From Actinomycetales bacterium (GTDB taxonomy: Bacteria; Actinomycetota; Actinomycetes; Mycobacteriales; Micromonosporaceae): a stretch of DNA of 64,000 bases. Under the pieces are notes generated by a model. The model was not told the origin of the DNA, ran no database searches, and saw only the letters and a list, made by a program, of their open reading frames with translations. Location of the stretch: positions 124,001 to 188,000 of the forward strand of contig PKFB01000080.1 of the NCBI GenBank assembly GCA_002919305.1, read 5' to 3'. Both the position numbers and the translations under genes were made by a program. Below, piece by piece: positions 42,273 through 48,284 of this stretch. Positions within the stretch are counted from its first letter, which is position 1. The number at the start of each line of letters is the position of its first letter.

Positions 42273-42340
42273 AAACGGCCATTCGGCCAGTCGGCTCACC
42301 TCGAGGCCGCGGACCCCGACTCCGGGATCCGCGGCCTTTT
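42252..42340 (+). promoter_or_regulatory. whiB7 attenuator (terminator and competing hairpin)
   Basis: The terminator is AGGCCGCGGA (42304-42313) paired with TCCGCGGCCT (42328-42337), extended inward by three C-G pairs and followed by TTTT. A self-complementary CCTCGAGG occurs inside the end of the upstream ORF (42252-42259) and again at 42299-42306, where it overlaps the base of the terminator stem. Pairing of the two copies would block the terminator base. A ribosome finishing the upstream ORF would cover the first copy and favour termination. Confidence 0.7.
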
Positions 42341-42395
42341 GCATGACCAGCGTGGTTTCACCAGACCAGAGGATCGAGACCGAGGAAGGAACGAG

Positions 42396-42779
42396 GTGAC
42401 CGGGACGATGAACCTGGCCGTGGCTCCCTTCGGCGGACTCGCCGCCGAGGGAGTCGAGCTGCCCTGCCGGCAGTACGACCCGGATCTGTGGTTCGCAGAC
42501 TCTCCGGCTGAGTTGGAGATCGCCAAGGCGATCTGCGGCGAATGCCCGCTGCGGTTGGAGTGCCTGGCCGGCGCCGTTGAGCGGCGTGAGCCCTGGGGTG
42601 TCTGGGGCGGCGAGATCTTCGAGCGCGGTGTGGTGGTGCCGCGGAAGCGGCCGCGGGGACGTCCTCGTAAGGAGGACGCCGCTCGGGACGCGATCGCCCG
42701 GGTTGAGGTGACCGTTCGGACCGAGCAGCTGTTGAAGAACACCCGCCCGATCGATGTGCACGGAGAGGACGCGGCCTGA
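42396..42779 (+). CDS. whiB7: WhiB7 antibiotic-resistance regulator
   Basis: WhiB-family iron-sulfur transcription factor. Cluster ligands: LPCRQYD, then CGECPLRLEC; the turn GVWGGE follows; and the C-terminal AT-hook KRPRGRPRKED identifies WhiB7 among the paralogues. It works with the primary sigma factor to switch on ribosome-protection, methyltransferase and efflux genes under translation inhibitors. The GTG at 42396 has AGGAAGGA 5 nt upstream; an in-frame ATG at 42408 is the alternative. The linkage uvrD2-whiB7 is conserved in actinomycetes. Confidence 0.9.
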   Translation: MTGTMNLAVAPFGGLAAEGVELPCRQYDPDLWFADSPAELEIAKAICGECPLRLECLAGAVERREPWGVWGGEIFERGVVVPRKRPRGRPRKEDAARDAIARVEVTVRTEQLLKNTRPIDVHGEDAA

Positions 42780-43670: not shown

Positions 43671-44981
43671 TCAGCCAGCGAATCCGGGTACCCACCGCTC
43701 CACCACCGCGCGGTAGGGAGCCTTGGCCTCCAGCTGGCACAGCACCCCGATGGACCCCAAGGTCACCCGGTGCACCAGCAGGTACGCCGGGGGCAGGTTG
43801 AGATTCCTGCTGAATTGGTAGGCCGGGCTGCGTGGCGCGGTCAGCCGGACCGCCTCATGACGCAGCCAGGAGCGGCTGAACCGGAACTCGTCACGGGCGA
43901 TCGGCTCCAGCATGGGCAGCAGGAAGTCCAGGAGCGCTTCGGCGTCGACCTCAAGATCCGGTTTGATGAATCCCTCTTGCCGCAGCCCGTCGAGCACGGC
44001 TGTTGCTTCACCAGCCAGGGCCAGCCGGGTCAGGCGCCCGATCGGCTCGGGGAGGCCTCCCGGCAGCCGTGCGACCGCTCCGAAGTCGAATACCCCTAAC
44101 CGCCCGTCCGGGAGCATACGGAAATTACCGGGATGAGGATCGGCGTGGAGCAGGCCAGCCAGTGCGGGAGCGGAGAAGTGCAAGGTGGCCAGCAACAGGC
44201 CGGCCCGGTCCCGCTCCTCTTGGGTGCCGGAAGCGATGACTTTCGATAACGGCGTGCCGTCCATCCATTCGGTCACTAGGACCTTCGGGGAAGCGGCGAC
44301 CACCGCCGGGATCGCGATCTCGCTGCTGTCGGCGTACGCCTTCACAAAGGCCTGTTGCGTGCGGGCCTCTAACTCGTAGTCCAACTCCTCGTTGAGGCGT
44401 TCGCGTAGCTCCGCGATCAGTGGTTTGATCTCCAGCGCAGGCTGGATCACGCGGAACAGCAGCGTGGCCTTGCTGAGCTGGTTGAGGTCGGCCAACAGGG
44501 CCTCTCCCGCGCCGGGGTACTGCACCTTCACGGCGACTTCGCGACCGTCCCGCCACACCGCCCGGTGAACCTGGCCGATACTGGCCGCGGCCGCCGGTGT
44601 GTCGTCGAAGTCGGCGAACCGGCGACGCCATCGTGGGCCGAGTTCAGCGGCGAGCACCTTGTGCACGGTGGCGGCCGGCAGGGCGGGTGCGGCGTCCTGG
44701 AGTTTGGTCAGGGCCGCCCGATACGGGGCGGCGATGTGCTCGGGGAGGGCCGCCTCGAAGACGGATAACGCCTGGCCCAACTTCATGGCGCCGCCCTTGA
44801 GTTGACCCAGCACGCTGAACAGCTGCTCAGCTGTGCGCTGCTGAATCTCGGCCGTGATGGCCTCGGGGGCCAGACCGGTGACTCGTTTACCGAGACCGAG
44901 CGCGGCTCGGCCAGCGAAGCCCAGCGGGAGTGAAGCCAGTTTCACCGTACGTGATACGGCCCAGCGGGGGATGTCGGTCAC
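43671..44981 (-). CDS. ABC1/UbiB-family atypical kinase
   Basis: A 436-aa protein of the AarF/ABC1/UbiB family. The diagnostic N-terminal LKGGAMKLGQ (KxGQ motif) is followed by AAASIGQVHRA (Ala-rich loop), VAVKVQYPG with the catalytic Lys, a Glu-rich ELRERLNEELDY helix, HADPHPGNF and VFDFGAVARLP. Members act as ATPases linked to isoprenoid-lipid or quinone metabolism. No quinone genes are near, so the exact role here is open. The ThiF-like gene lies upstream on the same strand. Confidence 0.9.
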   Translation of the reverse strand: MTDIPRWAVSRTVKLASLPLGFAGRAALGLGKRVTGLAPEAITAEIQQRTAEQLFSVLGQLKGGAMKLGQALSVFEAALPEHIAAPYRAALTKLQDAAPALPAATVHKVLAAELGPRWRRRFADFDDTPAAAASIGQVHRAVWRDGREVAVKVQYPGAGEALLADLNQLSKATLLFRVIQPALEIKPLIAELRERLNEELDYELEARTQQAFVKAYADSSEIAIPAVVAASPKVLVTEWMDGTPLSKVIASGTQEERDRAGLLLATLHFSAPALAGLLHADPHPGNFRMLPDGRLGVFDFGAVARLPGGLPEPIGRLTRLALAGEATAVLDGLRQEGFIKPDLEVDAEALLDFLLPMLEPIARDEFRFSRSWLRHEAVRLTAPRSPAYQFSRNLNLPPAYLLVHRVTLGSIGVLCQLEAKAPYRAVVERWVPGFAG

Positions 44982-45090
44982 GCGCTCATTCTCCTCGGAT
45001 CGAGCGGTAGCTGGATCCCACGGTATCCGACTATTCCCGGGTTACCCGGATGGTTTTCTCCAATCAAGATCAATTTGTTGGGTTGACGTT

Positions 45091-46191
45091 TCAGCAGGCA
45101 TGACGGCGCGGGCGGATCAGGCAGCGGCAGCGGGGATGCGGTGTCCAACTGCGTCGGCGGATCCGGCCGGGACCCCGCAGCTCCAGGGTGCCGCCCATTG
45201 TCTCCGGCTCTCCGCCGTCGAGGTAGTACAAGGCCTGCATGACGGTCAGTGCGGCTCCCGCGGTGACTACCCCGACCTCGCCGGGCTCGGGTCGCTCCGG
45301 TGTCGTGGCGAGCTGGGCAGCCAGCAGCGGCCAGGCCGGGTCCCGGTCCTGTCGATGCAGGTCAACACACTGCAGACAGGTGGTGCGTCCAGGTTCAACC
45401 AGCGGACCCACCACGACGGTGCCGTCGCGCAGCCACGCCGTCAGATGCGGCTGTCGCCGCAGCGCGTACGTCGTCGCCGCCAGTGGCGCCGGACGGGGCG
45501 TACCCAGGAAGATCACCAGGTCGACGCGTTCCGTCCCCACCGCACACACCTTGGTATCGGGCGCCGCGCGGAGCACCGCGTCCTGGGCGGCCAACAACCG
45601 TGACCGGCCTTCGTCGCCGGGCAACAGACCGCCCACCGCGTGGTCACCGATCGCGGCACGGCCCGGGATCTCCAGCTCCACCCGGCCCACACCCGCGGCG
45701 GCCAGGAGCGCGGCCACCGGGGCGACCATGCGGCCGCGGCCGCATACGCGTACCCGACTGTGATGCCGATTGACGAGCACAGAAGCCGGTGAGCGATCGT
45801 GCGTTCGGTCCGACGAGGCTGGGGCGCCCAGGGAGCGGTTACGGAGCGCGAGGCCAGCGAGCTCTGGTTCCAGGCGGCGGCGTTTGCCCTCTGGCAGGCG
45901 GTGGGCGATCACCGCAGCGGGATCGAACAACAGGCCGGCCGACCGCAACAGCCGCAGCAGCCGGTCCGTGACGGAGGTGGGGATCCCGAGCTGAGCCGCC
46001 TCCTGGTGGATCTGAGGTTCGGTTCGGGTGCCGTCCATCAGGTCAAGCAGCCGGATCTCGGCGAAGTCACCGAACTCCAGCACGACCGCGTGGGACGGAT
46101 CGACGCCGAATTGCACGGTACGCGTGTGCCGCCACAGTCGCACCAACCATGGTGGAAGAAATATCCGCTTCATGGAGGATGACGGTCTCAT
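45091..46191 (-). CDS. ThiF-like / TOMM-type leader-binding protein
   Basis: About 366 aa. The N-terminal 110 residues resemble a small winged or RiPP-recognition-type region (VVLEFGDFAEIRLLDLMDGTR). The rest looks like an E1/ThiF fold with a degraded nucleotide loop (VCGRGRMVAPVAALLAAAGVG) and zinc Cys in CLQCVDLH and CRCL. Actinomycetes carry this single-copy gene at this place; it is often labelled TOMM precursor leader-binding or cyclodehydratase-like. No precursor peptide or dehydrogenase is near. Starts at 46191 or 46173 are both possible; neither has a good ribosome binding site. Confidence 0.7.
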   Translation of the reverse strand: MRPSSSMKRIFLPPWLVRLWRHTRTVQFGVDPSHAVVLEFGDFAEIRLLDLMDGTRTEPQIHQEAAQLGIPTSVTDRLLRLLRSAGLLFDPAAVIAHRLPEGKRRRLEPELAGLALRNRSLGAPASSDRTHDRSPASVLVNRHHSRVRVCGRGRMVAPVAALLAAAGVGRVELEIPGRAAIGDHAVGGLLPGDEGRSRLLAAQDAVLRAAPDTKVCAVGTERVDLVIFLGTPRPAPLAATTYALRRQPHLTAWLRDGTVVVGPLVEPGRTTCLQCVDLHRQDRDPAWPLLAAQLATTPERPEPGEVGVVTAGAALTVMQALYYLDGGEPETMGGTLELRGPGRIRRRSWTPHPRCRCLIRPRRHAC

Positions 46192-46213
46192 CCATATATG
46201 CGAAGAGTCGTGG

Positions 46214-46285
46214 TTGTCCACAGCTGCGGTGGGATATCCACAGCCCGTCCCCAGGTTGTCCACAGGATTGGGCTAGTTATCCACA
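46214..46285 (+). promoter_or_regulatory. Array of four DnaA boxes
   Basis: TTGTCCACA at 46214-46222, ATATCCACA at 46234-46242, TTGTCCACA at 46256-46264 and TTATCCACA at 46277-46285. All are on the plus strand and start 20, 22 and 21 bp apart, close to two helical turns. TTGTCCACA is the usual actinobacterial DnaA box. They stand just upstream of the ThiF-like gene. Confidence 0.8.
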
Positions 46286-46466
46286 ACTCGACGTCGCCAT
46301 TGTCGGATATGCGACAAAGGTGATGGTGGCCTCGATGGGTAGCGCGGGCCGAAACGGCGATGTGGGCTGGATGTGGGGTTCGTCGGCTGGTCATGGCCAG
46401 GGTGAAAAAGCCGGTGGGGCGACGCGTCGCGTCGCCCCACCGGTCAGACGGTCGAGAAGCGGCGGC

Positions 46467-46619
46467 TCACGCCTTGCCGAGGATTCGGTTCATCTTGGTG
46501 CCACAGACCGGACATGTCCCTTTGGCCATTCGGCGTCCGGAGTCGCTCACCGCGACCTCGCCCTGGAAGTCGCGCTTCTCCTTGCACTTCACGCAGTAGC
46601 CGTTATAGGTCTCGGCCAC
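46467..46619 (-). CDS. DUF5679 zinc-ribbon protein
   Basis: A 50-aa protein: CVKC near the N terminus and CPVCGTKMNRILGKA at the C terminus, a four-Cys zinc ribbon. DUF5679 proteins are near-universal in actinomycetes, function unknown. The GTG at 46619 has GAGGAGG 5 nt upstream; the longer frame to 46706 has none. Confidence 0.88.
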   Translation of the reverse strand: MAETYNGYCVKCKEKRDFQGEVAVSDSGRRMAKGTCPVCGTKMNRILGKA

Positions 46620-47109
46620 GATTCCTCCTCTGTCTATCCGGCACGAAACGCGCAGGTTGTGAACTTCGTCCGTAACGAGCTCGTGAACTGAGCTGTAGTC
46701 AGTCACAGACGTGGGTCGTCGTCTCGCGGACCCTACCCAGGGCGTACCCGGTCTCCCTCACTCCTCGTCAGAGCTGTGAGGAACCAAACCCGGACCGGGA
46801 CTGATCGCTCTTTTGATAAGCGATCGCGTATATTGCCCCTAATCTGGACATAGCTCCCCCGACCTGCCGGGAACCCGTCGCCTTCCCCGCGCTCCGGCTT
46901 CGCGGCAGGGTCGGGGGTCTCCGCGGTGTCTGCCGGGACACCGGTGCAGACGCTAAGCAGCCCACCATCCCCCGGTCAACACGACATGCCTGATGAGCAG
47001 GCACATTACCCAGGCTGACGACGGCTACTCATGGCTTATCAGTAACAAAGCGGCGTAATCCGAAGGTCGACCCTGCCGCCTACAGGCCTCTGCCGGATAG
47101 CGTTCGAAC
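46620..47109. other. Intergenic region between divergent genes
   Basis: 490 bp. It includes an inverted repeat GATCGCT (46803-46809) / AGCGATC (46819-46825) directly followed by an A/T-rich TATATT. That is compatible with an operator next to a promoter. No small gene with a ribosome binding site is seen. Confidence 0.4.
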
Positions 47110-47679
47110 GTGGTGGGCAAGCCAGTTCCGGACCCGGTCATCGAGGTACGGCGCAGCGCCAAGCGTCGCCGTACCGTCTCGGCCTACCGGGAGGGAGATC
47201 GTGTGGTGGTCCTGATCCCCGCACGCTTCACCGAGGCCGAGGAGCGCGAGTGGGTCGACCGTATGCTCGAGCGACTCGCGGCCCGGGAACGACGTAGTAG
47301 ACCTGGTGATGACGACCTGTTGGTTCGAGCACGGCGGTTGGGGCGCAAATACTTCCCTGATCATCCCGACGCCCAGCCGGTGAGCGTGCGGTGGGTTGGT
47401 AACCAGCGAGGACGGTGGGGGTCGTGCACCCCTGTGGACCGGACCATCCGATTGTCGGATCGGCTGCAGGGAATGCCCGACTGGGTTATCGACTACGTGC
47501 TGCTGCACGAATTAGCGCACCTGATCGTGGTTGGCCACGGGCGGGACTTCTGGGAACTTCTCAAGCGCTACCCTCGTACCGAACGCGCCCGCGGCTACCT
47601 GGAAGGAGTCGCGGCCGCCGCCGGACTGGATCTACGCGAGGATCTGCCCCCAGACGCCGGGCCACCCGAAGGTGAGTAA
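47110..47679 (+). CDS. YgjP/M48-like metallopeptidase
   Basis: A 189-aa protein. The conserved RWGSCTP segment precedes VLLHELAHLIVVGHGRDFWELL, the extended zinc site HExxH plus a distal His typical of YgjP (WLM-like) peptidases. Soluble, no signal peptide. In actinomycetes it accompanies the DUF2064-like gene, which here overlaps its stop codon (TAATG). The substrate is unknown. GTG start at 47110; a second GTG follows directly. Confidence 0.85.
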   Translation: MVGKPVPDPVIEVRRSAKRRRTVSAYREGDRVVVLIPARFTEAEEREWVDRMLERLAARERRSRPGDDDLLVRARRLGRKYFPDHPDAQPVSVRWVGNQRGRWGSCTPVDRTIRLSDRLQGMPDWVIDYVLLHELAHLIVVGHGRDFWELLKRYPRTERARGYLEGVAAAAGLDLREDLPPDAGPPEGE

Positions 47680-48284
47680 TGACGCGATGTGTGGCGGTCC
47701 TACTCGGACCCGCACAGTGGGTACCCCCTGGAGTCGCACCCGCGCGATGGCGTCGTGCGGTGCTTGAGGACGTGGTGGATCTATTGGCGCCCCTGGCCGA
47801 GGTGGAAACCGCGGTGGTGACGACCGAGGCGGACCGCCCCCTGGCTGAGGCGGTCATCTGGCCGGGGATGCGGGTGTATGTCGTCGACGTGGCTACCCCG
47901 CTGTCCGCGCTGCGGCATCTCGCTCAGGAAGGGTACGCCCAAGCGGCGATCCTGGCCGCGGACGCCCCTGATCTGCCCTCCATGCTGGTAGGGAAGCTGC
48001 TGCGGCCGTTAGGGCGGCGTCAAGCCGCGGCCGCTCCCGATATCGGAGCCGAGCGGGGCCTGCTGGGCCTGGCTGCCGTGCTGCCTCCACCCGAATGGCT
48101 CATCCAGGCCGATCCCACTCTGGAAGAGGCCACTGTGCCGGAGCTGCGTCGCGCCGCCCGGAAGCCGGGTGTGGTGGCCGAAGCGATGGGCTGGTACCGG
48201 CTGCGCGGACCGGAGGCCTTCAGGCGACTCGATCCCGCCCTGGAAGGCTGGGAGGCGACTCGTGCTCTCCTGTCTGGAGTGTAG
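47679..48284 (+). CDS. DUF2064/nucleotidyltransferase-like protein
   Basis: A 201-aa protein with a Rossmann-like core: VAVLLGPAQWVPPG at the start and AAILAADAPDLPSMLVGKLLRPL in the middle, the latter resembling the DAPDLP motif of glycosyl/nucleotidyltransferase-A-fold proteins of the DUF2064 group. The usual N-terminal P-loop-like signature is weak, so catalytic ability is unclear. Coupled to the metallopeptidase gene by a 1-nt overlap. Confidence 0.6.
   Translation: MTRCVAVLLGPAQWVPPGVAPARWRRAVLEDVVDLLAPLAEVETAVVTTEADRPLAEAVIWPGMRVYVVDVATPLSALRHLAQEGYAQAAILAADAPDLPSMLVGKLLRPLGRRQAAAAPDIGAERGLLGLAAVLPPPEWLIQADPTLEEATVPELRRAARKPGVVAEAMGWYRLRGPEAFRRLDPALEGWEATRALLSGV

Follow-up and report, generated by a model that had tools for sequence, protein, structure and literature searches.

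The question raised by this locus is why several DnaA boxes should stand in a row in front of a ThiF-like gene, away from any replication genes. In the window, meaning the whole 64,000-nucleotide stretch of actinomycete DNA analyzed here, four boxes lie on the plus strand between positions 46214 and 46285. The box closest to the gene and antisense to it, TTGTCCACA at 46214-46222 (+), lies near -48 to -40 relative to the predicted promoter. It is followed by ATATCCACA at 46234-46242 (+), an extra box with one mismatch that is absent from most relatives, by a second copy of TTGTCCACA at 46256-46264 (+), and by TTATCCACA at 46277-46285 (+), the farthest from the gene. The start-to-start periods of 20, 22, and 21 bp each correspond to about two helical turns. 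The original prediction of four near-perfect boxes on the same strand and 20 to 22 bp apart is thereby reproduced in position, strand, and period. Three of the four boxes match TTRTCCACA exactly and the fourth has one mismatch; compared with the Escherichia coli-type consensus TTWTNCACA, one box is exact and three carry one mismatch. The array sits in front of the ThiF-like gene, as predicted, in a 293-bp gap that extends from the stop codon of a DUF5679 gene (46467) to the ThiF-like start. The normal origin of replication, which the original prediction had also discounted, is ruled out by the gene context: the genes inspected near the array include no dnaA, dnaN, or gyr gene, and dnaN, recF, and the gyr genes are located on another contig together with a dnaA-dnaN box region that has its own boxes. 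A search of positions 44000-48000 for structured RNA gave no Rfam match.

Single near-boxes occur in the window at an ordinary count, with 19 observed versus 18 expected. When the window was simulated 150 times with a first-order model, at most two same-strand boxes fell within 72 bp, and a Poisson estimate gives ∼3e-5 same-strand clusters of four per 4.94-Mb genome. The array is nevertheless not unique but one of several box clusters in the source genome. The genome-wide count that had been proposed as a check, obtained like all genome-wide box counts here from pattern searches, returned 31 matches of the same-strand pair pattern at roughly 20 to 25 places, compared to none for the reversed control.

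The ThiF-like gene occupies 45091-46173 (-) and encodes 360 amino acids from an ATG at 46173, a start placed by comparison with relatives and probably leaderless. The same comparison led to the rejection of the listed 390-residue open reading frame, whose start at 46263 would overlap the array. The assignment to ThiF is weak. The protein scores an E value of 0.033 with the Pfam ThiF model and 7.6e-07 with TIGR03882, the latter under the cutoff of the model; its resemblance to TOMM leader-peptide-binding proteins stays below the cutoff. A sequence search of the PDB with this protein yielded no significant match (MccB, E value of 0.22). Behind it, at 43671-44981 (-), lies a MABP-1-type gene for an ABC1 kinase-like protein, and gene order and strand suggest that the two genes are probably transcribed together. 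The ABC1 gene reaches 506 bits with the NCBIfam MABP-1 model, whose exception cutoff is 800. MABP-1 itself (Rv3197) is a macrolide binder whose expression is induced by erythromycin, and the passages on MABP-1 mention no link to DnaA (PMC6208485). The likeness to MABP-1 consists of the match to this model; the score lies under the exception cutoff, and drug binding by the protein encoded here is putative. The upstream neighbor is the DUF5679 gene at 46467-46619 (-), which has a GTG start and whose distance to the array varies. Near the ABC1 gene, a WhiB-family gene (42339-42779, +) encodes an RGRPRK AT-hook motif, as in WhiB7.

The absence of the array from close relatives had been set beforehand as a possible refutation; the array is present in them. 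The ThiF-like gene occurs in 56 of 61 relatives and in 171 of 197 genomes of the class. In most genomes of the same family, the array is conserved upstream of this gene in the same antisense orientation, mostly as three boxes with periods of 21 and 32 bp (31 to 32 bp for the longer one), which correspond to two and three helical turns. The source genome, read along the gene, shows periods of 21, 22, and 20 bp and is one turn longer overall, with one box more. A search for the exact triad TGTGGAYA-N13-TGTGGAYA-N24-TGTGGAYA gave a single copy per genome in 76 of the 201 family genomes and no copy for the reversed control, and 27 of the 30 triads fetched precede a ThiF-like gene on the same strand; since these loci share descent, such conservation counts, like those for the class-wide loci below, are not independent events. 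Two of the remaining three triads (L305 and L307) closely resemble same-genus triads that do precede the gene. Exceptions within the family are L273 and L274, which lack the boxes, and others that have two.

This conservation bears directly on the explanation that the array arose by chance or as a by-product of coding repeats, in which TATCCACAG reads YPQ. In-phase boxes do exist inside the murJ coding repeats of the source genome, but the array is intergenic, the 32-bp period is not a multiple of three, the chance expectation is minute, and the triad is conserved at one copy per genome. With its conserved triad and promoter spacing, the array refutes this origin, the probability of which is negligible.

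In genomes of other families, weak variants often replace the TTR half of the box, whereas the CTGTGGA core stays, and in many families a single box is left at the same promoter position. Families f8 and f31 keep a box at the ThiF-like promoter, the former resembling a Mycobacteriaceae metagenome-assembled genome (MAG) record; the named records of the Mycobacteriaceae MAG and of another actinomycete MAG show a matching layout. Genomes of the mycobacterial type have one box at this promoter. Some relatives have a second box cluster, which precedes the ThiF-like gene by an additional ∼500 to 650 bp and lies close to the distal side of the DUF5679 gene (L048:846-900, L057:843-863, and L063:867-931).

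The position of the boxes is tied to a promoter-like element. On the gene side of the nearest box, relatives have a TGACAGCGT-like sequence and, a few bases later, the ATG, an arrangement that reads as an extended -10 element with a leaderless start. The source genome carries a similar element, TGAGACCGT at 46182-46190 (-), 23 bp from the nearest box, for which a promoter function is predicted. Wherever both are found, 22 to 25 bp separate the end of the nearest box from the extended -10; the DUF5679 stop codon, in contrast, lies anywhere between 47 and 505 bp from the array among relatives. The TGTGGA core is present at the fixed spacing in 50 of 87 loci across the class, namely, 19 of 28 within the family and 31 of 59 outside it, the latter being the fairer test, as the offsets were picked after the family data were known. 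At other offsets, the core occurs in 0 to 1 of the 87 loci, and five control hexamers give none. Among nine family genomes, the layout of box and extended -10 falls at the ThiF gene in eight, with scattered single sites elsewhere, which makes this layout appear ThiF specific. A DnaA-regulated promoter is expected to have its boxes at a constant distance, and such a position is found here, the promoter itself being predicted. Many family members among L041-L059 and L284-L312 additionally have the inverted repeat GTGACA-N3-TGTCAC, which covers the predicted -10 and the ThiF-like start and may serve a second regulator as an operator. The copy in the source genome (46150-46200 region) is not clearly palindromic.

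Taken as a whole, the array probably serves the predicted ThiF-like promoter as an upstream regulatory element bound by DnaA. Several DnaA molecules would occupy the boxes along one face of the helix, the nearest at about -48 to -40, just above the -35 region, and the others at least two full turns farther upstream. Such an assembly could contact RNA polymerase at an extended -10 promoter that is probably leaderless. How strongly the ThiF-like gene is transcribed would then depend on the level of DnaA, its ATP state, or the local gene copy number; as judged from gene order, this control probably extends to the downstream ABC1 gene of the MABP-1 type. A position upstream of the -35 region is typical for activators. 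Activation is favored over repression because the boxes lie upstream of the putative -35 and -10 elements and not over them.

The original prediction had offered three functions for the array, of which the one acting locally on the ThiF-like gene has good comparative support from a conserved array locked to the -10 element. The other two, titration and reactivation of DnaA, come out weaker, and neither explains a distance that is fixed on the promoter side only. The Streptomyces DnaA-box trap and E. coli datA are clusters of strong boxes away from oriC, a description that also applies to the array. A site of this titrating or inactivating kind would absorb DnaA and delay initiation, with the neighboring gene incidental. 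The boxes of the array are strong and dense, many clusters exist genome-wide, and combined titration by all of them is plausible; on the other hand, the distance to the promoter is fixed and that to the upstream side is not, and the one box that many families keep at the same promoter position is too few for a sink. Unlike the trap and datA, the array is coupled to a putative promoter and reduced to one box in many families, and no effect on initiation is known for it. Titration as its function is accordingly rated as unlikely. A DARS-like site, which would exchange ADP for ATP on DnaA, is highly improbable. A conserved intergenic site with three to four boxes would suit it, but the DARS core consists of three boxes in mixed orientation at tight spacing, whereas the boxes here are all on the same strand with periods of 20 to 22 and 31 to 32 bp. 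The reduction to one box in many families and the coupling to the promoter speak against it as well. Neither function would need a fixed promoter spacing or survive the reduction to one box.

The assignment of DnaA as the binding protein draws on the boxes themselves. A DnaA-regulated promoter is expected to have boxes like those at the oriC of its own organism, and the boxes at the ThiF-like gene, at the oriC of the same genomes, and at competence genes have the 11-mer GTTRTCCACAG in common. Perfect boxes are more common at the ThiF-like gene (48 of 68) than in the region upstream of dnaN (56 of 295). The common 11-mer and the share of perfect boxes fit DnaA, short of proof. A site of the GTTRTCCACAG type is not known for any other factor. 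Control of the promoter, and perhaps of the competence genes too, by a regulator other than DnaA that recognizes a DnaA-box-like site with the core CTGTGGA is nonetheless conceivable, if rather unlikely. The persistence of CTGTGGA outside the family while the TTR half decays would agree with such a regulator, as would the boxes at competence genes, which, in contrast to oriC boxes, vary at positions 1 and 2 but seldom at the 3' end (Fisher P value of 4e-7). Against it, the boxes of the family are textbook DnaA boxes that have both flanking G positions in common with oriC boxes, and the 3'-end bias may simply mean that weak boxes are tolerated within oriC. A study combining DnaA IDAP-seq in Mycobacterium tuberculosis with ChIP-seq in Mycobacterium smegmatis names five strongest regions, and Rv3196 is not among them (PMC7738170). 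With the single box of the mycobacterial type, a weak or absent peak would neither contradict nor support the reading at the family level.

With DnaA as the probable binder, the locus is best read as a new target gene in a known class, DnaA-regulated promoters, with an unusually regular geometry. Such promoters outside oriC (dnaB, dnaA, nrd, and others) likewise have boxes upstream of a gene away from the origin, and the source genome itself has clusters at dnaB and nrdR. The present case differs in the gene concerned and in an antisense 21/32-bp array locked to a predicted extended -10. Binding of DnaA to dnaB and rpmH-dnaA in M. tuberculosis is recorded in the study cited above, as is an interaction site between Rv0010c and Rv0011c, intergenic and in front of a gene whose function is unclear (PMC7738170). 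The latter resembles the array in being an intergenic site of an actinomycete in front of a poorly understood gene; it differs as a palindrome of two boxes near oriC and is a separate locus. The ThiF-like promoter offers a specific candidate, found across the class, for transcriptional control by DnaA in actinomycetes; it lies close to a whiB7-like gene and to an ABC1 gene of the type that binds macrolides.

A second arrangement of boxes extends the question to DNA uptake. In relatives from the same order (L100-L189), a sense-strand pair of DnaA-box-like 9-mers, 17 to 19 bp apart, precedes comEA, ssd-tad, or yraN-yifB in 70 of 89 loci, compared to 1 antisense and 0 downstream controls. The pair is followed by a -10 element and a probable leaderless start, and the source genome has its own copies at C10:23817, C23:13903, and C2:118934. 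Beyond the order, the pair is rare, with 5 of 28 comEA loci, one of the five being from the same order. The one-mismatch boxes of these pairs deviate at positions 1 to 3 and not at the 3' end, unlike those of oriC, so a different binder is possible. It is proposed only tentatively, as something that may well prove otherwise, that DnaA directly controls a wider gene set in this order, comprising the ThiF-like and ABC1 genes via the phased antisense array and a DNA-uptake set (comEA-comEC, the ssd-tad pilus, and yraN-yifB-dprA) via the sense pair, which would tie the replication state to natural transformation. The open-access literature, to which the search was confined, yielded no description of DnaA boxes for either comEA or the Rv3196 region. 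If DnaA binds the competence pair, this would provide a first candidate for the regulator of natural competence in Actinomycetota; the pair is a more interesting lead than the array. For Micrococcus luteus, a 2026 paper describes the competence regulatory cascade as still to be identified (PMC12849477).

Box clusters in the source genome are also found at oriC, gyrA, dnaB, nrdR, a DUF4192 gene, comEA, yraN-yifB, and ssd-tad. Those upstream of dnaB (at least seven boxes), nrdR, gyrA, and the DUF4192 gene lie at L092:4028-4167, L089:3011-3051, L098:4025-4054, and L093:4492-4625, respectively. Within coding sequence, three boxes at 21-bp periods occur in the YPQ repeats of murJ (L091:5787-5837) and a GAF/GGDEF-like gene contains four at 12-bp periods (L086:3842-3886). 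Further pairs or arrays precede small genes of no assigned family at L095:5779-5806, L095:14626-14699, and L096:4270-4578, the first of these lying near a type VII secretion mycosin gene.
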